Below, in pieces: positions 22,985 to 34,553 of a stretch of 34,834 nucleotides of DNA (position 1 is the first letter of the stretch; every line of letters starts with the position of its first letter). The stretch lies in assembly GCA_016290215.1 (NCBI GenBank), contig JAEETH010000037.1, positions 1 to 34,834 on the forward strand, read 5' to 3'. Source of the DNA: Bacteroidales bacterium. Its GTDB lineage: Bacteria > Bacteroidota > Bacteroidia > Bacteroidales > F082. The position numbers were made by a program, and so were the translations under genes. The notes beneath the pieces were generated by a model. It saw nothing but the letters and a program-made list of their open reading frames with translations, did not search any database and was not told the DNA's origin.

Positions 22985-23014
22985 TTGTAAATAATTAAAA
23001 AATAAGTATTTTTG
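22985..23014 (+). promoter_or_regulatory. Consensus Bacteroidota promoter for the DUF4143 gene
   Basis: TTG at 22985-22987, exactly 19 nt, then TATTTTTG at 23007-23014: a perfect match to the phylum consensus. It places the transcript start near 23020 and fixes the start codon at 23039. Confidence 0.82.
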
Positions 23015-23038
23015 CAGCCGAAACAAACCACAAAAAAA

Positions 23039-24331
23039 ATGGTTTATCTACATCGCACATCTGACATCATTTTGAAAGAAAGGCTTGAGGCCTTCGGAGC
23101 CGTATTGATAGAAGGACCAAAATGGTGCGGCAAAACAACCACCACCGAACAAATCGCAAAAAGTGTCATCAAACTGCAAGACCCCGATATGCGCAACGAG
23201 TATCTTGCCACGGCTGCCTCAAAACCATCGTTGTTGTTACAAGGCGAAACACCACGGCTTATCGATGAATGGCAAGACGCTCCCGTCATTTGGGATGCGG
23301 TTCGTACAATGGTGGACAAGCGAAACCTTCCCGGGCAATTCATTCTGACAGGATCGAATGCCGTTGACAAAAAAGCCATCTTTCACTCAGGCACAGGCCG
23401 TATTTCCCGAATGAAAATGCTTCCCATGAGCCTATGGGAATATGGTGAATCGAATGGGAAAATCTCACTTCAACAGTTATTTGACGACCCAACATTGGAC
23501 ATTGATGGCATCACTTCTGATATGCAGGTGGAAGACCTTATCTTCGCCGCATGTCGCGGAGGATGGCCTGCAACCATCAATATCAAGTCGGATAAGGCAA
23601 AACTCTTTGTGGCAAGGGATTACGTTGATTCCGTGTGCAAAGAGGACATTTCCCGAATCGACGGCGTACAACGCGATGAAAGAATTGCCAAGAAACTGCT
23701 TCGCAGTTATGCCAGAAACATTTCGACATTGGCCAAACAAACTTCCATCCTCGCCGATATAGTTTCCTCGGGCGAAGTTTCGCTGACCAAACCGACTTTT
23801 GAGGATTACGTCAAGGCGTTGGAAAGGCTCTTTGTTATTTGCGACATCGACGCTTGGTGTCCAGCCATCCGAAGCAAGACTGCCATCCGAAGCGGCCATA
23901 AACGGGCGTTCATCGACCCATCCATAGCAGTTGCCGCATTGGAAATTACTCCAGAAGCCCTGCACACCCAACTCAAGACTTTCGGTTTCATCTTTGAGCA
24001 AATGTGTGTCAGGGACTTAAAAGCCTATACTCCTGATTTCGATAGCCATTTGTCTTATTACCGCGACCGTTACGGATTGGAGGCCGACCTTGTCCTTCAC
24101 CTGAATGACGGGCGATATGCTTTGATTGAATGTAAACTTGGCAGCCAAGAGATAGAAGAAGGAGCTGGACATTTGCTTGAATTGCAAAGTCTTGTCCGTG
24201 AGTATAACAAAAAGGAAAAGCAAGTTCCCCTTCGCGAGCCTGACTTATTAATCATCCTCACGGGCGGCAAAATGGCCTACACCCGCAACGATGGGGTGAA
24301 GATTATTCCATTGGCGGTATTGAAGCCTTGA
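23039..24331 (+). CDS. AAA-type ATPase with DUF4143 domain
   Basis: A 430-residue protein of the AAA_14/DUF4143 family, widespread in Bacteroidota and without a settled role. The Walker A loop is GPKWCGKTTT (residues about 27-36 of the chosen start) and the Walker B-like block is RLIDEWQ. Sensor-like LTGSNAV follows. The C-terminal DUF4143 half ends with a nuclease-like pattern (LEADLVLHLNDGRYALIECKLG) in which D-(x)n-ECK resembles a PD-(D/E)XK core. The ATG at 23039 is favoured because the upstream in-frame ATG at 23012 lies inside the promoter. It is a single-gene unit between divergent and convergent neighbours. DNA-related function is inferred. Confidence 0.88.
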   Translation: MVYLHRTSDIILKERLEAFGAVLIEGPKWCGKTTTTEQIAKSVIKLQDPDMRNEYLATAASKPSLLLQGETPRLIDEWQDAPVIWDAVRTMVDKRNLPGQFILTGSNAVDKKAIFHSGTGRISRMKMLPMSLWEYGESNGKISLQQLFDDPTLDIDGITSDMQVEDLIFAACRGGWPATINIKSDKAKLFVARDYVDSVCKEDISRIDGVQRDERIAKKLLRSYARNISTLAKQTSILADIVSSGEVSLTKPTFEDYVKALERLFVICDIDAWCPAIRSKTAIRSGHKRAFIDPSIAVAALEITPEALHTQLKTFGFIFEQMCVRDLKAYTPDFDSHLSYYRDRYGLEADLVLHLNDGRYALIECKLGSQEIEEGAGHLLELQSLVREYNKKEKQVPLREPDLLIILTGGKMAYTRNDGVKIIPLAVLKP

Positions 24332-26686: not shown

Positions 26687-26694
26687 TATCTTTG
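26687..26694 (+). promoter_or_regulatory. -7 box for the MATE transporter gene
   Basis: TATCTTTG followed by CACTC matches TAnnTTTG, 19 nt before the ATG at 26713. The -33 position is ACA rather than TTG. Confidence 0.55.
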
Positions 26695-26712
26695 CACTCG
26701 AATTCGACGACC

Positions 26713-28104
26713 ATGTCAAACATCAACGACGAGCGGAAAATCAACGAGCGGTACAAGATGATGACAGAACAGCCCGTCAGGCGGCTGATCCTCAAGCTGG
26801 CTGTACCCACCATCATTAGCATGCTCGTGACCACCATTTACAATATGGTGGACTCGTTTTATGTGGGTCATTTGAGCACCGAGGCCGTGGCAGGCGTAGG
26901 CGTTTCGTTTGCCTACATGGCCTTTATTAATGCCTGCGGATTCTTTTTCGGGCATGGCTCGGGCAACTACATCTCGCGGGCTTTGGGGGCAAAACAGGGA
27001 CAGAATGCAGGTCGTATGGCGGCCACAGGCTTCTTCACACCATTAATTGTAGGTGCCCTTGTGGGTTGGAGTTGTCTGCTGTTCATCTCGCCTCTATCGC
27101 GGGCCATGGGCGCCACCGACACTATCCTCCCCTACGCCAACAACTACCTGCGGTTCATCCTCCTTGCCACGCCTTTCATGATGTCGTCGCTGACGCTCAA
27201 CAACCAGCTGCGACTACAAGGCAACGCCCGCTTCGGCATGATTGGCATCGCCTCAGGCGCCATCCTCAACATCATCCTCGACCCCATTTTTATCTTTGTA
27301 CTTGACTTGGGTGTCAGTGGAGCTTCGTTAGCTACAGCGGTGAGTCAGTGCTTCGGCTGGTGCATTTTGCTTTGGGGCACTTCGCGACCTGGCAATGTCC
27401 ACATCAAATTCAAGAACTTCACCCCTACCCTATACTATTACAAGGAAATCACGCGGGGCGGTTTGCCCTCTTTGGCACGACAGGCTTTGTCGGTGGTGGC
27501 CACCATCAGCCTCAATCGTATGGCGGTGCATTATGCCTTGCCCGGCAACGAAGCCTCAACGGTGGCTGCCTTTACCATCGTGTCGCGCATCACCATGTTC
27601 TGTTTTGCCGTTGTCATTGGGTTCGGGCAAGGTTTCCAGCCCGTGTGTGGCTATAACTATGGCGCCAAACTCTATGCGCGTGTCAAGGAGAGTTATATGT
27701 TTTGCATCACACTTTCCACGGCATTTCTGATTGTCTTAGCATCGGTGGTCTACATTTTCGCTCCCGACATCATTTCATGGTTCCGTGGCGAGGACCCCGA
27801 GCTCATCCGCGTGGGCAGTCAAGCTTTGCGCTGGCAGTGCATCGCTTTCCCGCTGATGGGTATGTGCACTGCGACCAACATGCTGTTCCAAAACATCGGC
27901 TACACCTGGCAAGCCACCTTGCTCTCGATGTGCCGTCAGGGCTTGTATTTTCTGCCTGCGGTCTTCATCATGTCGTGGCTTTGGGGCATCACAGGCCTCG
28001 AAGCCGCCCAAGCCGTCGCCGATGTTTGCACCTTCTTGACCTCGCTGCCATTTGCTATTTGGATTAGCAGGGAACTTAGCGCGAAGTCACAAAAGTGTCC
28101 ATAA
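26713..28104 (+). CDS. MATE family multidrug/Na+-coupled efflux transporter
   Basis: A 463-residue inner-membrane transporter with about 12 hydrophobic segments. Its N-terminal pattern PTIISMLVTTIYNMVDSFYVG is characteristic of the DinF/NorM-type MATE superfamily, and a second repeat half begins near RGGLPSLARQALSVVATISL. These proteins export cationic drugs or metabolites using a Na+ or H+ gradient; the substrate here cannot be predicted. The ATG at 26713 is chosen because the -7 box ends at 26694. The last codons (QKCP and the stop) fall inside the 248-bp repeat that starts at 28087, so the C-terminus may have been replaced or trimmed by insertion. Confidence 0.92.
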   Translation: MSNINDERKINERYKMMTEQPVRRLILKLAVPTIISMLVTTIYNMVDSFYVGHLSTEAVAGVGVSFAYMAFINACGFFFGHGSGNYISRALGAKQGQNAGRMAATGFFTPLIVGALVGWSCLLFISPLSRAMGATDTILPYANNYLRFILLATPFMMSSLTLNNQLRLQGNARFGMIGIASGAILNIILDPIFIFVLDLGVSGASLATAVSQCFGWCILLWGTSRPGNVHIKFKNFTPTLYYYKEITRGGLPSLARQALSVVATISLNRMAVHYALPGNEASTVAAFTIVSRITMFCFAVVIGFGQGFQPVCGYNYGAKLYARVKESYMFCITLSTAFLIVLASVVYIFAPDIISWFRGEDPELIRVGSQALRWQCIAFPLMGMCTATNMLFQNIGYTWQATLLSMCRQGLYFLPAVFIMSWLWGITGLEAAQAVADVCTFLTSLPFAIWISRELSAKSQKCP

Positions 28105-28334
28105 CTCGAAATTTTGTTGAGATATGGACACTTTTGGGTGTTATTGTCGAAATAATTTGGCCGTGACAACCATAAACAAACGGCTGCCACGGTGCTTCGA
28201 CAGGCTCAGCAACCTTGTGACAGCCCTACACCACCCTGCCCAGGCTGTAAGGCTGTCGTACCACGGCAGCCGCATGATTCATTCGCGCATTGCAAATGTT
28301 GATATTCAGGACTTTTGAGTTGCAAAATTCGGAA
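28087..28334. repeat. 248-bp structured repeat, copy 1
   Basis: Long imperfect direct repeat with copy 2 at 29222-29468, estimated near 85% identical. From its left end it holds a hairpin GTGTCCATA/TATGGACAC (extended by CTC/GAG and by AAAA/TTTT), which acts as a terminator candidate right at the MATE stop. Next comes an outer stem CGGCTGCC/GGCAGCCG (about 28180-28272), and within it an inner stem GACAGCCCTACA/TGTAAGGCTGTC with one mismatch. A TTCGACAGGCTCAG core lies between the outer and inner 5' arms. No open frame spans it. Confidence 0.88.
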
Positions 28335-28416
28335 AAACAAGGAGAACAGGATATCTCCCGAGAACCGCTTCTTCCGCCTTGATGCGGGATTCCGCCTGAT
28401 GGATGGCCAAGTCCAT
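28306..28416 (-). other. Short open frame, possible gene remnant
   Basis: A 36-residue minus-strand frame starting MDLAIHQAESRIKAEEAVLG and ending inside repeat copy 1. The amphipathic helical start looks protein-like and the frame is open further upstream (SLNKPIGLKSQEG) to a stop. No promoter is visible. It may be the tail of a lost gene; it could equally be chance. Confidence 0.25.
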
Positions 28417-28468
28417 ACCTTCCTGGCTTTTCAGACCTATCGGTTTGTTTAGCGATTATTGTTAGACA

Positions 28469-28505
28469 ATCCGTCGAGGACATCAATGCGACACCCTCGA
28501 CGGAT
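28469..28505. repeat. 11-bp inverted repeat after the HdeD-like gene
   Basis: ATCCGTCGAGG (28469-28479) and CCTCGACGGAT (28495-28505) are perfect complements around a 15-nt loop, 27 nt beyond the HdeD-like stop. No T-run follows on the minus strand, so it is a stem-loop or 3'-end stabiliser rather than a standard terminator. Confidence 0.7.
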
Positions 28506-28531
28506 ATGAAGTCAAATGTATAGGAAATCTA

Positions 28532-29107
28532 TCAACCTTTGAAGGTCTGATTGACTTGATTGACGACATTCTTCACTTCCTTCTCGAAGCGGTTCACACC
28601 TGCCAAGGCGACGATATGAGCCAAACCGGAGACGATGATGGAGATGCCGATGAGGGTTGTGAGCGTCTTGGCAGTGACGTCAAGATTCTTGAGGCCGAAG
28701 AAGCCGAGGACGGCACCAACGATACCCAGCAACAGGATGGCCCACCATGAGGGGAAACCCACCTTCTTGTAATCAAAGCTCTGGACAGCCACACTAATAC
28801 CCTCGATAATCACCCAAATGGCGAACATGACCGGGAGTGACACGGCGGCACCAAAAATGTTGAACAATATGAAGAAGCCGAAGAAGATTTCAAGCAAAGC
28901 CATCAAAATGCGGGAAGCACTGTTGGGCATGAATGCCTGCGTCCTGAAAGTGAACACCATTCTAAAGATACCCGAGAAGAGGGTCAACAAACCCAGAATC
29001 CATGCCGTGGAAAGAAGGGTAATGTCGGGTCTCATGATGCAGATGACGCCAAGGGCGATGAGAAGGATACCTGAAATGCAGAGCCAAATTTTTTTACTTG
29101 TCTTCAT
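28532..29107 (-). CDS. HdeD/DUF308 family membrane protein
   Basis: A 191-residue integral membrane protein with about six short hydrophobic helices (for example IWLCISGILLIALGVICI and WAILLLGIVGAVLGFFGL). The repeated pattern G..L...G...........L....G is that of the DUF308 family, which includes HdeD, linked to acid resistance in enterobacteria. Its role in Bacteroidota is unclear. The gene stands alone, leftward, between the two copies of the 248-bp repeat. I find no clean TAnnTTTG box in the 114 nt before copy 2. The last residues (VKNVVNQVNQTFKG) form a soluble helix. Confidence 0.88.
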   Translation of the reverse strand: MKTSKKIWLCISGILLIALGVICIMRPDITLLSTAWILGLLTLFSGIFRMVFTFRTQAFMPNSASRILMALLEIFFGFFILFNIFGAAVSLPVMFAIWVIIEGISVAVQSFDYKKVGFPSWWAILLLGIVGAVLGFFGLKNLDVTAKTLTTLIGISIIVSGLAHIVALAGVNRFEKEVKNVVNQVNQTFKG

Positions 29108-29221
29108 AATTTGAACAATTTAATTTGTTGATTAATTTGATATTAGATAATTTTCGTCTTCATTGTTTATTGAAATCGGCGATAAAAATACAAAAAAACC
29201 GCAGATACGGACACTTATAAA

Positions 29222-29468
29222 TCACAAAAAGTGTCCATAACTCGATATTTTGTTGAGATATTGACACTTTTGAGTGTTATTATCGAAATAATTTTGCCGT
29301 GACGACCATAAACAAAACGGCTGCCACAGTGCTTCTACAGGCTCAGCAACCTTGTGACAGCCCTACACCACCCCGCCCTTGTAGGGCTGTCGTACCACGG
29401 CAGCCGCATGATTCATTCGCGCATTGCAAATGCTGGTAATTCAGGCTTTATGAATTACAGATTCGGAA
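29222..29468. repeat. 248-bp structured repeat, copy 2
   Basis: Same orientation and order of elements as copy 1 (28087-28334). The left hairpin keeps GTGTCCATA against TATTGACAC (one change). The outer stem GGCTGCC/GGCAGCC is identical, and the inner stem is now a perfect 12 bp (GACAGCCCTACA/TGTAGGGCTGTC). The loop between the inner arms differs most between copies, while the arms are kept. It lies between the HdeD-like gene and the end of the 275-residue gene; 29469-29529 holds nothing further. Confidence 0.88.
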
Positions 29469-29529
29469 GAACGGGTCTATGTTATCAAAGATATATTCGT
29501 TGCCTGTTACCATATAGTACTATAAATCT

Positions 29530-30357
29530 TTAATACTCGAATATCTCATCGCCTAATAAATCCTTTATAACCGGGTGTTTCCAGTAGATATGAGTTACTT
29601 CTTCTGTTTCGCAAGTACGAGGGTCTATTATTTCACTGTTAGTCTGTCCACAACCCACTATTTGTAGGTTTGTAGATTTAGATAGAAGTTTTGCAGCTTC
29701 AGCAAGATAAACATCGAGTTTATCCTTTTCATTTGTGTCATTGTCATCGCAATCTTGGTAAGCCTCACTAATCTCAGCCATCTTCGTTTGAATGTCTGGC
29801 AAGTACCAATCGGTCACTGACTGTTTTTCTTCTACAACAAGCCCCGATGAACTATTAATGCTGACTATTCTTTGGTATGGATTATAACGAGGGTCACCAT
29901 GGCTATTATAATCCATTGGCATAAACAAGGCAATGTCGAAAACCTTTCCTCCTTGATTGTCCGATTTGAAATTCAAGTCGAAGACATCCTCCATCTTTCC
30001 TGTTTCCTTATTCATCACTACAATCTTGTAAGGAATTCCGCTGTTGTTTTGCAGTTCGTCATAATCCTTAAGATGTTTGAAATCAATGTTGGTCGTGACA
30101 TCAATACGGCATGGTTTGTTGTCAAGGAAACCTGAGAAATCGCACTTTATCCCATAGTCAAGAGATGGTGTCAGACCAAACTCACGTTGGTAACCTGTGA
30201 AGAAATCGAGTTCTGCCTTTAGGCCATACCATGCTGGTTTTGGCAAAGTAGTATATTGTTTGTTGAGATAATGGTAAGCTTTCCTTTTCCCATCCCTATG
30301 AAGGATAGCAAAAGTCATATTTTTGATTCCGTTATATAAATGCGCTGGATGTGCCAT
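29530..30357 (-). CDS. Unrecognised 275-residue protein, possible PD-(D/E)XK-like nuclease, downstream of abiH
   Basis: I do not recognise a named family. No signal peptide or membrane helix is present. Residues 44-94 have the pattern YGLKAELDFFTGYQ (Glu49), KCDFSGFLDN (Asp73) and CRIDVTTNIDFK (Asp86, Thr88), which resembles the E...D...(D/E)xK layout of the PD-(D/E)XK nuclease fold, with Thr instead of Lys in the last position. A Cys-containing segment (IVGCGQTNSEIIDPRTCE) near the C-terminus is followed by THIYWKHPVIKDLL. It lies 52 nt downstream of abiH on the same strand, suggesting a two-gene unit. Nuclease activity and a defence role are inference only. Confidence 0.6.
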   Translation of the reverse strand: MAHPAHLYNGIKNMTFAILHRDGKRKAYHYLNKQYTTLPKPAWYGLKAELDFFTGYQREFGLTPSLDYGIKCDFSGFLDNKPCRIDVTTNIDFKHLKDYDELQNNSGIPYKIVVMNKETGKMEDVFDLNFKSDNQGGKVFDIALFMPMDYNSHGDPRYNPYQRIVSINSSSGLVVEEKQSVTDWYLPDIQTKMAEISEAYQDCDDNDTNEKDKLDVYLAEAAKLLSKSTNLQIVGCGQTNSEIIDPRTCETEEVTHIYWKHPVIKDLLGDEIFEY

Positions 30358-30409: not shown

Positions 30410-31279
30410 CTATGACTGAAATGTTCTGTAATTAGATGAAACAATACCTAACTTATTTGCCACATCTTCGATATGCTTTATCTCTTTATCGTTGTGATAT
30501 GAGAACTCCCACTGGGTTGTCGCATTCACACATTTTTTCACTTCAATGAAATAGGGCATGTCTACATCTGCTATTGAGTGACCTATCACCACCACCTCAT
30601 CTACATTTGCCAGCCCATCAAAAAAAACATGATTCTTTCCTATTATCTGTTTCGTCTTCTTCTCCAGCCTGTTTATTGTTTTCACGATAGCCCTGTAGTT
30701 GGCTTCGTGGTCATAGAAGTCCTCTTTTATATTTGGTGGCATGGAGGCTGGGGTGTTATGCCCAACTATCAGCTCATCACCTTTCGACGCTCTTCCATGA
30801 ATATGCACTATTTTATCATCAACAATCCCATATATCATTTCCAAGGTATCAGAATAGTTGAATGTCAAAAACACGTCTGTTGGGTCAAAACTAAAACGCT
30901 TCAACGGCGCAACGCCAGTCAAGTTTATACTCTCGCACCATTCCGTAAAGGTCTTGCTGAACTTCTCACAAATCTCCACGAAGTGATACTGCACCTCCGC
31001 CTCTACCTCTTCAACAGAGCGTGTCACATGATCCATATCCAAGGTGTGCCCTTCCCGAAGGAAGTCGTATATCGCTTTCACATTGTATTTTCCCAACGCC
31101 CCTTCCAAATCCGACCACAAAAGATTCGATGGGTTTCCTGACACATTGCCGAAATAGTATTCCAACATCCTCATCATCCACGCTTCGCCTTTCAGCTTCA
31201 GGAACTCATGATAATCCCAATAGCGAGTTGACAATCCATGCGCCAAGTCAAAACCATTACCAATAATATAAAGTTTCAT
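30410..31279 (-). CDS. abiH: AbiH-family abortive infection protein
   Basis: A 289-residue cytoplasmic protein of the AbiH family, first described as a lactococcal phage abortive-infection factor. Family hallmarks are visible: IIGNGFDLAHGLSTRY at residues 5-20, LTFNYSDTLE at 138-147, VHIHG at 158-162, and VIGHSIADVDMPYF at 231-244. The first block resembles a nucleotide- or Rossmann-like loop. The mechanism is unknown; loss of the host cell after phage infection is the classical reading. Length is typical for intact members. A possible -7 box lies 170 nt upstream (31449-31456). It forms a probable operon with the 275-residue gene. Confidence 0.88.
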   Translation of the reverse strand: MKLYIIGNGFDLAHGLSTRYWDYHEFLKLKGEAWMMRMLEYYFGNVSGNPSNLLWSDLEGALGKYNVKAIYDFLREGHTLDMDHVTRSVEEVEAEVQYHFVEICEKFSKTFTEWCESINLTGVAPLKRFSFDPTDVFLTFNYSDTLEMIYGIVDDKIVHIHGRASKGDELIVGHNTPASMPPNIKEDFYDHEANYRAIVKTINRLEKKTKQIIGKNHVFFDGLANVDEVVVIGHSIADVDMPYFIEVKKCVNATTQWEFSYHNDKEIKHIEDVANKLGIVSSNYRTFQS

Positions 31280-31573: not shown

Positions 31574-31846
31574 ATGACAGCATTAGAATTAAATGCGGAA
31601 TTGTACCGCGCAATGGGTGAGATTGCCGATGATGAGACTTTGTTGGTCAAGGTGCTGTATTTTGTGAAGGGACTTGCACCTGCAAAAAAGTCTAAGGACA
31701 AAAAGCATGGTATGGATGAAAATGAAAGATTGGATGCCGCATTGGCAAGGTTTCACAAGGATTGGGGCGGCGATGGCAGTGCTCAGGAGATTGCTGATGA
31801 ATTAAGGCACAATGTGGTAAACAATAGAACCATAGAAGATTGGTGA
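31574..31846 (+). CDS. Antitoxin partner of the PIN-domain toxin
   Basis: A 90-residue protein immediately preceding a PIN toxin, so it is called an antitoxin from context. The N-terminal half (MTALELNAELYRAMGEIADD, then LLVKVLYFVKGL) is helical; the middle is a Lys-rich linker; the C-terminal part (AQEIADELRHN..NNRTIEDW) ends in the acidic/aromatic tail common in toxin-binding segments of Bacteroidota antitoxins. It is not an obvious AbrB or Phd type from the sequence. Its stop lies 2 nt before the toxin ATG, indicating translational coupling. Confidence 0.75.
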   Translation: MTALELNAELYRAMGEIADDETLLVKVLYFVKGLAPAKKSKDKKHGMDENERLDAALARFHKDWGGDGSAQEIADELRHNVVNNRTIEDW

Positions 31847-31848
31847 CC

Positions 31849-32253
31849 ATGCAGACACACGAGACATATCTTTTGGACACTTGCATTTGCATAGCTCTAA
31901 TCAAGGGAAATGCTACAGTTGTGGAGCATATCAGACAGGTAGGGTACACCAACTGTAAAATTTCCGAAATAACACTTGCTGAATTGTATTTTGGCGCAGT
32001 CAAGTCAGGGCACCAGAAACACTTTGAAGATGTCTATGAAATCAAGGATCTCTTTGAACAATACCCCATTTCTAATAGCCTGAAGGAATATGGTGAAATT
32101 CGTTGGCAATTGGAGCGCACGGGAATGAAAATCGACCATTTTGACACGCTCATCGCTGCAACAGCTCTTCAGGAAGATTTTATTCTTGTAACGGGCAACA
32201 TAAAACATTTCAATCGTATCCCTGGGTTGCGAATTGAAAACTGGATGGAGTAA
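31849..32253 (+). CDS. vapC: VapC-type PIN-domain ribonuclease toxin
   Basis: A 134-residue Mg2+-dependent ribonuclease of the PIN superfamily. The acidic catalytic residues are visible in order: Asp in YLLDTCICIALI, Glu in ITLAELYFGA, Asp in IDHFDTLIAATAL, with the closing block TGNIKHFNRIPGLRIENW. VapC toxins usually cut tRNA or rRNA to arrest growth. ATG 31849 is preferred over the upstream in-frame TTG and GTG codons because it follows the antitoxin stop at once. The gene ends 20 nt before the convergent GH95 gene, with a hairpin at 32282-32305 as likely terminator. The toxin looks intact. Confidence 0.92.
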   Translation: MQTHETYLLDTCICIALIKGNATVVEHIRQVGYTNCKISEITLAELYFGAVKSGHQKHFEDVYEIKDLFEQYPISNSLKEYGEIRWQLERTGMKIDHFDTLIAATALQEDFILVTGNIKHFNRIPGLRIENWME

Positions 32254-32273: not shown

Positions 32274-34517
32274 TCACCGCGAAGTCACTTTAGAATGCGT
32301 GACTTTTCCATTCTTCCATTTACATTCCACCACCTTGCCACCACGAGCGCAAAGCCCCTTAAAATAGCCATCTTTCCATACCGATGGCAAGGCGGGCAGT
32401 AATTCTAGTTCGCCATCATGGCTTTGCAGCAGCATCTCGGCAATACCCGCCGTGCCGCCAAAGTTGCCGTCGATCTGGAGAGGTGGATGAGCGCAGAAGA
32501 GATTGGAATAGGTGCCTGCTGAATGGCTTCCGTCAAGATGGAGTGCCGGCTCGAGCAGGTTCCTCAATAGATGATAGGCATGGTCGCCGTCGTGAAGGCG
32601 TGCCCAGAAACAGATTTTCCATGCCCTCGACCAGCCCGTGCCTTCGTCGCCACGGCGACGTAAGGTCTCGCGACAGGCATCCATTAATTCTGGCGTCTTC
32701 GATTGAGTCAGCATCGTGCCAGGATACAAACCAAAGAGATGCGACACATGGCGGTGCTGCGGCTCCACTTCCTTATAATCCTTCAGCCACTCCTGCAGAT
32801 AACCCTGCTCGCTGACCTGCATCGGCGGAAAATGTGATTTTGCAGTTGTTAGGCTATCAACGAAAGATGCGTCAACACCCAATATGCTCGCAGACTGACA
32901 AACAGCATCATACAGCTCGCTGACAATCTGCACGTCCATTGTGCTACCCATACATACACTGACGGCGGTGCTATCGTTGAGCCAGAAAGCGTTTTCGGGT
33001 GATGTAGTCGGGGCGGTGACAAGCCAGCCGTGCTCGGGCTCCACTATCATCGCGTCGAGGAAAAACTGTGCCGCCTCTTTCATTAATGGATAGGCTTCTC
33101 GCAAAAATGCCGTGTCCTGCGTGAACTCAAAATGCTGCCATGCATGGAGGGCTAGCCAAGCCCCGCCTGTATTGGTCGCGCCCCATGAAGGATGCTCACC
33201 TGGTGCTGTGAAGCCCCAAGGGTTGCAGACCACATGTGCGGTCCAGCCTCGGGCACCGTAGAAGTCACGAGCCGTCTTTCTTCCTGAAGGCATTAATCCC
33301 TCAGCAAAGTGAATTAATGGCAGATGCAGCTCCGAGAGGTTGCAGACCTCGCAGGGCCAGTGGTTCATCTCCACATTGATGTTCAGGTGGTAGTCACCGT
33401 TCCAAGGCGTTTGGATAGTGTTGGCCCACAGTCCTTGCAGGTTGGGTGGCAGCAGGTCCTCGCGGGTGGAGCTGATGAGGAGATAACGCCCATAGTGGAA
33501 ATAACAGGTAGGCAGCCAAGGGTCGTCATTGACAAGGAAGTCTTTCCAATGGTCTTCCAAGGTCAGGTCTTGTTTCTCTTTAGGGTCGCCAATCATCAAC
33601 TCCACGCGGTCGAACAGCTCGTGATGGGCTTTTAGGTGGTCATTCTTCACCGCTTCAAAGCCTTTTGCCATGGCATTTTGCAGGTGTTCGTTGACGTATG
33701 TTTCTGGGTTGTCACACATGAAATCTGTTGCAGCGCAGAAATAGATGACGGTTTCATTGTTTTCGACAACTGTTTGTGCCTTAGCATAATATCGCATTCC
33801 TTCCATGCCTTCAACGTTGCTGTCCAGCTGGCCAAACATAATGACGCTGTCAGCATAGGTGAAAACCTCTGCTTTTTCAGGACGGGAGAGATTTACTTTT
33901 AGGGTCGGCCCTTCGACGGGCTCAGGGACCTTAGATTCGCCAGGCTCAGGGACCTTAACTTTTATCACCGAAACATCATCCTTGCGGGAAATGAAAGCCT
34001 CGCGCTCGTAGTGTTGACTACCTTTATCAAAAGAAACCTTGTGGATGGCATCATTGAAGCAAAGCGTTCGCTTATAATTGATTACGGAATCCGAATTTGG
34101 ATATTGATATTCGATGGTCATATTGCCCAAGGTCTGGTAACAACCAAAAGGTACCTTTGCGCCTTGACCGTGGCCCGAACCTTGACCCCCACAGACGAAA
34201 GTCTCATACATCAGGTTTTGGGCTTCGTCGTTCTTGCCATCCTTCAACAGGCGTTGAATATCCGGAAGCGATTGCAAGGCCAAAGGATTGCTGTCGTCAC
34301 TCGGTGCGCCACTCCATAAAGTGATGTCATTCAACACAATGGTCTCCTTTTCCACCCTGCCATCGGGCATCATGCCGAGGTGGCCGTTGCCCAAAGGGAG
34401 ACATTCCTCCCAGAGCTGGGCGGGGGCAGTGTGGGTGAGGTTCCACTGCAGTTGTGGGGATTGCTTTTGGCAACCGCAAAACATGAATAAGGGGATAATG
34501 AAAAGAAGATGCTTCAT
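32274..34517 (-). CDS. GH95 family alpha-L-fucosidase/galactosidase lipoprotein
   Basis: A glycoside hydrolase of family 95, 747 residues, anchored by a lipobox ending CGC (lipidated Cys about residue 16). Such enzymes release L-fucose, or in some subfamilies L-galactose, from host glycans or plant xyloglucan. Family blocks are intact: the start [19 protein letters not shown], then [10 protein letters not shown], the Asn-bearing [12 protein letters not shown], the catalytic Glu block [11 protein letters not shown], and [15 protein letters not shown] with the catalytic Asp region. The ATG at 34515-34517 is used rather than the upstream TTG at 34529. Residues about 188-204 ([17 protein letters not shown]) are a translated copy of a dispersed repeat inserted in a loop of the N-terminal beta-sandwich domain. 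It is probably periplasmic or surface-exposed. Confidence 0.94.
32282..32305 (+). terminator. Terminator of the vapBC module, inside the GH95 3' end
   Basis: A 7-bp stem AAGTCAC/GTGACTT (32282-32288 with 32299-32305) ends in TTTT on the plus strand. It overlaps the last codons of the convergent fucosidase gene. Confidence 0.6.
33906..33956. repeat. Dispersed palindromic repeat inserted in frame in the GH95 gene
   Basis: Two arms in tandem, CCCTTCGACGGGCTCAGGGACCTT and CGCCAGGCTCAGGGACCTTAA, share a 24-nt period. 33906-33932 matches the reverse complement of 21831-21857 at 26 of 27 positions. Translated on the minus strand they give KVPEPGES then KVPEPVEG. The insertion is 51 nt, a multiple of three, so the enzyme frame is intact. 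Confidence 0.85.
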
Positions 34518-34553
34518 GGCAATAGACAACCTTTATTTCGGAATCGATCATGG

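Follow-up and report, generated by a model that had tools for sequence, protein, structure and literature searches.

Two 248-bp direct repeats flank an HdeD-like gene in a 34,834-nucleotide stretch of DNA from a Bacteroidales bacterium (GTDB lineage F082; assembly GCA_016290215.1, contig JAEETH010000037.1; hereafter the window, at its whole length), and each of them is a composite scar in which the end of an ATPase gene of the PDC-S27 family is joined to an ordinary mobile hairpin repeat. The repeats are best explained, with a probability of roughly 0.7, as remains of a PDC-S27 cassette at an insertion hot spot, the gene and its palindromes together being a unit that is inserted and lost. This explanation draws on the observed composition of the repeats, the presence or absence of the gene at fixed sites, the repeats that bracket it and the palindromes specific to its subtypes. 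PMC12988326 describes PDC-S27, a candidate defence gene of the PADLOC collection, as an ATPase fused to a PD-(D/E)XK member, and counts it and PDC-S01 among the most frequent defence candidates that consist of one gene; most PDC candidates still await experimental validation.

Composition of the two repeats

Copy 1 (28087-28334) and copy 2 (29222-29468) contain the same elements in the same order and orientation and are 90% identical end to end (pairwise alignment, E 4e-88), with the likeness extending about 15 bases further as judged by eye; the pair of structured direct repeats on either side of the HdeD-like gene, as first described, is therefore present. Repeat positions 1-87 comprise a palindrome and the last 9-10 codons (MVVTAKLFR(Q)*) of a PF01637 ATPase of the PDC-S27 family, positions ~95-186 constitute a REPIN, i.e. 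an inverted pair of GTAG-type repetitive extragenic palindromes (GTAG-REPs), and the remainder of the 248 bp is a tail. In copy 1 the terminal palindrome of an ATP475-type PDC-S27 cassette (28091..28136) encloses the stop codon of the adjacent MATE transporter gene and is followed on the minus strand by the last 10 codons and stop of the ATPase (MVVTAKLFRQ*, 28141..28173, by translation), which is the equivalent spot at the 3' end of intact genes at loci L059 and L060. The corresponding parts of copy 2 are the palindrome at 29227..29272 and the translated last nine codons and stop on the minus strand (MVVTAKLFR*, 29280..29309). Thus, the original prediction that neither copy codes for protein has to be amended as to origin, each having retained the end of an ATPase gene. 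The predicted terminator-like GTGTCCATA hairpin is real, with fold z-scores of -7.1 and -5.5 and none of 200 shuffles as good.

The terminal codons of the window fit the C-termini of the ATPases (VVMDDLFRQ and similar), and in five genomes (G021, G018, G106, G121 and G123) the same palindrome occurs just after the stop of a full-length ATPase and again upstream of its start; in G165 an ATPase lies between the same palindromes on another contig. The ATP475-type palindrome thus directly adjoins an ATPase 3' end, as expected of a cassette. Upstream of intact ATP475 genes the palindrome is preceded by a further segment (CGCAGATACGGACACTTATAAATCAC), a remnant of which survives in the window at 29200..29225 on the minus strand, upstream of copy 2 alone. 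Given that the terminal codons, the palindrome and the upstream remnant all match intact ATPase genes, both copies are the remains of the end of such a gene. Unlike loci with an intact PDC-S27 gene, the window locus itself lacks the ATPase and preserves only its last 9-10 codons and this upstream remnant. On another contig of G151, there is an ATPase with an internal deletion.

The original prediction treated the 248 bp as one unit, and this part of it fails: the pieces of the repeat recur separately from one another in many places in the own genome and in related ones, ruling out a single 248-bp mobile element. No third full-length copy was found in the own genome among the 40 of 132 first-look candidates scored, nor was a further one recovered with the first 86 bp as query (all three candidates scored). 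The 248-bp repeat has a match of some kind in 13 of 40 genomes, own included, with long ones in G021, G018 and G016, and its first 86 bp are matched in 14 of 99 genomes of the genus, again counting the own. Plasmid records gave no DNA match to copy 2 and phage records none to 28087-29480.

The assignment of the ATPases to PDC-S27 is supported by strong matches to the PADLOC model (E 5.5e-205, 3.6e-191 and 9.7e-197). A Pfam scan of three ATPases from such units recovered PF01637 (ATPase_2) along with other AAA models, and DUF234 at the C-terminus in one of them, while a D...ExK signature is invariant in 15/15 and 45/45 aligned ATPases (D393 and E407xK409 in the latter set). A weak match of the ATPase profile to TnsC among PDB sequences (E 0.0057) is a lead only. 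The gene whose 3' end sits in both copies therefore resembles the PDC-S27 of PMC12988326 in being an AAA+ ATPase with a PD-(D/E)XK-type signature; the palindromes, the bracketing repeats and the presence or absence at fixed sites are not mentioned in the portion of that account available to us. Titles and the opening lines of abstracts likewise revealed no treatment of palindromes or mobility for the PDC-S27/PF01637 family, which does not establish their absence from print. Protein relatives of the ATPase (E <= 1e-30) occur in seven plasmid and three phage records, and among three of these whose flanks were inspected by eye (a Phocaeicola plasmid, the Segatella hominis HDD12 plasmid and one phage) a clear upstream palindrome is seen only for the Segatella protein, WP_218456567.1, and a bracketing repeat is evident in none.

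Occupied, solo and empty sites

The insertion site lies between the 3' end of the MATE gene (26692..28104, plus strand), which forms its left edge, and that of a GH95 glycoside hydrolase gene (32274..34529, minus strand), which forms its right edge. A search of 80 genus genomes recovered the MATE gene in 56; the genomes are assemblies, many of them incomplete, with related loci that are not independent of one another. Twenty-four stretches downstream of MATE were compared, namely 20 mainly from the closest relatives together with those of the window, G021, G018 and G016. The site is empty in 12 of the 24 (11 genomes), where the MATE and GH95 3' ends abut and overlap, and in 11 a PDC-S27 gene, its palindrome or both lie next to or near MATE, representing at least three subtypes that occur singly or in series; the remaining stretch, from G133, has no GH95 match. 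Hence, the junction of MATE and GH95 is a hot spot of insertion: many sister genomes have nothing there, and others have PDC-S27 genes, several of which are bracketed by the palindrome seen in the window. GH95 falls outside the stretch fetched in four of the occupied cases (G144, G138, G151 and G121), and at five of the seven sites with both edges visible (window, G021, G016, G106 and G143) part of the 3'-end overlap is present at either edge; of the other two, G018 has an altered left copy and in G123 no left copy is seen. In the window the duplicated part is CGCGAAGTCAC, with a left copy at 28080..28090 and a right copy at 32278..32288, where empty sites have a single copy.

The ATPase gene is no longer present in the window, where a remnant of its upstream region persists and the HdeD-like gene (DUF308; 28532..29107, minus strand) lies between the two scars, at the place where several relatives have the ATPase. 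Thirteen of 60 genus genomes, the own among them, have relatives of this gene, and in the other genomes that also have MATE they are on a different contig from it. The same hot spot in the window additionally holds, among other genes, a member of the AbiH family (30410-31279, minus strand; Pfam E 1e-57), next to which are an open reading frame (ORF) without family assignment (29530-30357) and a PIN-domain gene (31840-32253).

Comparable states were recovered at other loci. At locus L195 the ATPase of G018 lies between two 100% identical 73-bp repeats, and in G121, with flanks 98-99% identical to those of G018, there is one 73-bp repeat and no ATPase; this pair fits precise loss by recombination between the repeats as well as it fits precise gain. 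G012 has related palindromes without an ATPase at this locus, and the palindrome is not present in the stretch inspected in G019, G145, G131, G090 and G118. In G019 and G131 (L370 and L373) a different palindrome, TCTAACCGAACGG...TCGGTTAGAGA, occurs without an ATPase where G018 has its unit, and may be the solo scar of another subtype. Locus L233 is occupied in G016 and G021 and empty in G104, G146 and G117, which align across the whole 200-bp junction at 80-82%. For both loci three candidates per genome were scored, such that absence from the set of relatives is uninformative.

Palindromes and bracketing repeats around PDC-S27 genes

The association between PDC-S27 genes and palindromes was surveyed in two sets. 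For the first, 85 ORFs from the genus and other relatives matched the ATPases, of which 78 PF01637-type ORFs with enough flank remained after identical proteins and short flanks had been dropped, and these were compared with 101 non-overlapping ORFs of the same loci, after exclusion of 17 of 118 that overlap an ATPase on another frame or strand (repeats of at least 40 bits in 12/118 before this step and 4/101 after it). For the second, independent set, the 80 top-ranking loci out of 583, all named and mostly Bacteroidales or Bacteroidia by title, yielded 79 ATPase ORFs, which were compared with 225 control ORFs. Direct repeats of at least 40 bits bracket 42/78 ATPases against 4/101 other ORFs in the first set (p 7e-15), two of these four controls themselves resembling ATPases by sequence, and 16/79 against 6/225 in the second (p 2e-6). 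The bracketing repeats begin within 330 bp of the ATPase start in 41 of the 42 first-set cases and adjoin both gene ends in 14 of the 16 ATPases of the second set, as opposed to one of its six bracketed controls. After grouping at 70% identity they are present in 27/51 groups of the first set and 16/62 of the second. An upstream stem of at least 11 is likewise enriched (43/78 versus 14/101 in the first set; 42/79 versus 16/225, p 5e-17, in the second), with downstream stems in 31/78 versus 20/101 and 24/79 versus 38/225, respectively. In the examples printed, the bracketing repeat is usually a palindrome that differs by subtype and occurs in one or two copies per side, the upstream one usually lying ~30-160 bp before the start; since ORF starts were taken as the first ATG, GTG or TTG, some of these distances are off. 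Among 72 genes with a usable stem, an upstream stem of at least 8 bp is shared by 7/7 pairs with above 90% protein identity, 47% of 15 pairs at 70-90%, 15% of 72 at 55-70% and 3-4% of 2462 below 55%. The same stem is often kept in related ATPases of different organisms, in places with paired changes, as in L259 and L059 (72% identity). Thus, in Bacteroidales a PDC-S27 gene is often preceded by a palindrome particular to its subtype, and in part of the cases followed by it as well.

Beyond the palindromes, some units are bracketed by duplicated neighbouring DNA. Under a looser rule, 44 of the 157 ATPases were picked out, many by virtue of palindrome parts, and the counts given here are based on a stricter one for non-palindromic repeats (at least 30 bp, at least 85% identity, little internal pairing), which was satisfied by 14/157 ATPases and 0/319 other ORFs (p 1e-7). 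Four of the 14 (L168, L197, L202 and L278) look like palindrome parts, and L165 and L233 are the same locus in two genomes, leaving 10 genes at nine sites with duplications of 36-93 bp. Some duplications hold or adjoin the 3' end of a neighbouring ORF, most clearly at L148, L153 and L165, and two of the ORFs neighbouring the duplications are presumably RadA and ABC-F. At L162, L167 and L274 no such 3' end was found at the duplication, so insertion at gene 3' ends is a tendency rather than a rule. These duplications vary in length and are imperfect, unlike the fixed-length target duplications of a classical transposon, and the Pfam scan of the three unit ATPases detected no known transposase.

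Taken together, these features lead us to infer a mechanism in which the gene and its palindromes would be inserted as one unit, often next to gene 3' ends, the ATPase probably recognizing its own palindrome. Insertion would generate a long target duplication, such that the neighbouring gene keeps its end, and loss would occur when the bracketing repeats recombine, with a solo palindrome left behind. In its sequence features, the PDC-S27 gene with its palindromes resembles a single-gene mobile cassette, with putative self-mobility. The boldest form of this proposal is that PDC-S27 genes represent a novel class of mobile element consisting of one gene. The product, an AAA+ ATPase that bears a nuclease signature of PD-(D/E)XK type, would recognize the palindrome of its own subtype and bring about insertion of its own gene beside the 3' ends of other genes; a long stretch of the target would be duplicated in the process, and loss would leave a solo palindrome. 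We regard this as tentative and on balance improbable. As in solo long-terminal-repeat-like scars, two direct repeats bracket a gene and some sites have one repeat and no gene, with the differences that here the repeats are short gene-specific palindromes and that neither a reverse transcriptase nor a transposase of known type is part of the unit. Integrative elements at the 3' ends of genes offer a parallel in that some of the present cases duplicate the target 3' end and keep the gene intact, and differ from the single 1.4-kb gene seen here, which has no recombinase of known type and duplications of varying length (36-93 bp).

Several observations weigh against the reading of the repeats as scars of an inserted and lost PDC-S27 cassette. 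Movement itself was not observed; the window's type of palindrome was found in only the 14 of 99 genus genomes mentioned above; and the place of HdeD between two full-length copies is not accounted for in detail. Bracketing repeats are found in only 16 of the 79 second-set genes, 35/78 and 37/79 genes have no strong upstream palindrome by rule, the downstream excess is weaker in both sets, and related genes are not independent. Only one of the three inspected plasmid and phage relatives has an upstream palindrome, and duplications of 36-93 bp with copies differing by 2-14% are unlike a normal transposase footprint. On another contig of G140 (L389, 477-1720), an unrelated DUF7723/DUF4160 pair lies between two copies of the ATPase palindrome, which is included in a ~75-bp direct duplication that brackets the pair; hence, insertion itself may be independent of the ATPase.

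One alternative is that the palindromes are purely regulatory, serving as an operator that immediately precedes the ATPase promoter and as a terminator beyond the gene, with the insertions and duplications being products of ordinary recombination in defence islands. The usual distance of the upstream palindrome from the start, its greater frequency than the downstream one (43/78 versus 31/78 for stems of at least 11) and its folding as a stable hairpin would fit this, whereas an operator and a terminator need not share sequence as both ends often do, the palindrome also exists without the gene (G121 and G012), and target duplications bracket some units. We consider a purely regulatory role possible but unlikely; this judgement concerns mechanism and overlaps with the descriptive part of the cassette explanation.

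Alternatively, a generic or trans-acting process, such as a REP-associated tyrosine transposase (RAYT), a phage integrase or transformation, might add genes with long duplications, the ATPase being one cargo among others. The G140 pair, HdeD between the two copies in the window and the several different genes that occupy the MATE-GH95 site all speak for this, as do three DUF4143 (PDC-S01) genes of the own genome (L426, L436 and L449) bracketed by repeats of 54-89 bp. Against it, the palindrome sequence varies with the ATPase subtype in different organisms, a correspondence that would not be required of mere cargo. We consider this process, too, possible but unlikely. In DUF4143 genes, surveyed with slightly different search ranges from those of the first set, bracketing repeats of at least 40 bits were found at 4/28 loci, one of which is really an ATPase_2 gene, and upstream stems of at least 11 at 7/28, a weaker pattern than that of PDC-S27. 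The own genome has 28 DUF4143 matches, and the window itself includes an AAA_14/DUF4143 gene (23012-24331, plus strand; PADLOC PDC-S01, E 3e-60). Self-mobility, a generic process and regulation are not all mutually exclusive. A recent local tandem duplication of the 248 bp, with HdeD in between and of no wider meaning, is less probable still: it would fit the only two full-length copies found in the own genome among the candidates scored, 1.1 kb apart and in the same orientation, but at this site other genomes have full-length copies and no HdeD, and copy 2 alone has the ATPase upstream remnant. Such a duplication may still be the reason for there being two copies in this genome.

The REPIN, its putative mobility and wider meaning

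The remaining stems of the original prediction belong to the REPIN, at 28181..28272 in copy 1 and 29318..29406 in copy 2. Its outer CGGCTGCC/GGCAGCCG stem is as claimed, as is the inner 12-bp GACAGCCCTACA/TGTAGGGCTGTC stem, perfect in copy 2 and with one mismatch in copy 1, and both are accounted for by one repeat, GTAGGGCTGTCGTACCACGGCAGCC, in which a hairpin comes after a GTAG tag; this agrees with the definition of GTAG-REPs as 20-40-bp hairpins with GTAG at one end. The inner stem corresponds to the two facing GTAG halves and the outer stem to the distal halves; as each of its arms is a copy of one and the same REP, the inner stem is conserved. The described TTCGACAGGCTCAG core is also present (in copy 2 as TTCTACAGGCTCAG), as a second repeat nested in the left REP at 28196..28209 (plus strand) in copy 1, with a nested CTTCTACAGGCTCAGC repeat at 29332..29347 (plus strand) in copy 2; a repeat of this type is found in 15 of 16 aligned copies, that of G016 being without it. 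A CTTCGACGGGCTCAGG variant of the repeat occurs in frame inside the GH95 gene of the window at ~33911-33926 (protein ...KVPEPVEGP...). The REPIN parts fold less strongly than the hairpins (z -3.6, with 2/200 shuffles as good, and -5.5).

In the own genome GTAGGGCTGTCGTACCACGGCAGCC has 23 copies at up to three mismatches, versus none for a reversed control, and as judged by eye each of the 23 has an inverted REP partner within the ~170 bases printed beside it. On contig C29 of this genome, REP copies surround and interrupt a 221-residue RAYT-like ORF (L237), whose matches to NCBIfam REP_Tyr_transpos (E 9e-13, 48.3 bits, cutoff 80) and Pfam Y1_Tnp (20.8, cutoff 23) fall below the respective cutoffs; it is likely to be the REP partner, and its product would be what moves the REPIN. 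A REPIN lies inside this ORF (L237, 1229-1894), which stays open across it. The earlier claim of a mobile element is hence upheld in part, for the REPIN and for the hairpin of the ATPase cassette, which is variably present at the locus. The Y1_Tnp genes found by Pfam in the own and family genomes were rejected as REP partners, as none of the 31 loci scanned (L057, L058 and L067-L095, some ending early at contig ends) carries the REP. One of these, L057 (own genome, contig C88, ~70-73 kb), has an IS200-like transposase gene among many copies of a different short repeat with CCCCGTAGGGG or variants.

The GTAG tag, the hairpin, the inverted dimers with GTAG ends inside (TT) or outside (HH), the 23 scattered copies and the RAYT-like gene flanked and interrupted by them are all reminiscent of the GTAG-REP REPINs, or bacterial interspersed mosaic elements, with RAYTs in the accessible part of Di Nocera et al. 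2013 (PMC3733652), in whose terms the window REPINs, with both GTAG ends facing each other, are TT dimers. The same part of that source places GTAG repeats in Proteobacteria, Cyanobacteria, Chloroflexi and the Planctomycetes-Verrucomicrobia-Chlamydiae (PVC) group; the present REPIN differs in belonging to a Bacteroidales-type genome and in the TTCGACAGGCTCAG-type repeat nested in its left REP.

The original prediction further took the stems as a sign of selection for structure, as in a small structured RNA, and named compensatory stem changes across copies as its expected support. Among 37 pairs in three helices of 16 aligned copies none changed on both sides, and hence the data do not support selection for RNA structure; identity among the copies is 87%, which limits the power of this test, but mismatches do accumulate. 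The cells are paired in 92.7% of cases, versus 92.9% in shuffles and 30-40% in slid pairings, the excess over the latter being as expected of a structure derived from these very sequences. A structured non-coding or regulatory RNA kept by selection on its stems can accordingly be set aside as highly improbable: good hairpins and several copies in relatives would suit it, but there is no covariation, pairing equals that of shuffles, no Rfam family reaches its gathering threshold in the window and the pieces recur separately.

For the PDC-S27 family, the cognate palindrome provides a concrete candidate DNA substrate, and the sites with the gene, a single palindrome or nothing offer a route to measuring its gain and loss. 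If the gene does move itself, counts of defence systems in these bacteria would include selfish elements, and a candidate phage-defence family would be, or would have begun as, a selfish element.

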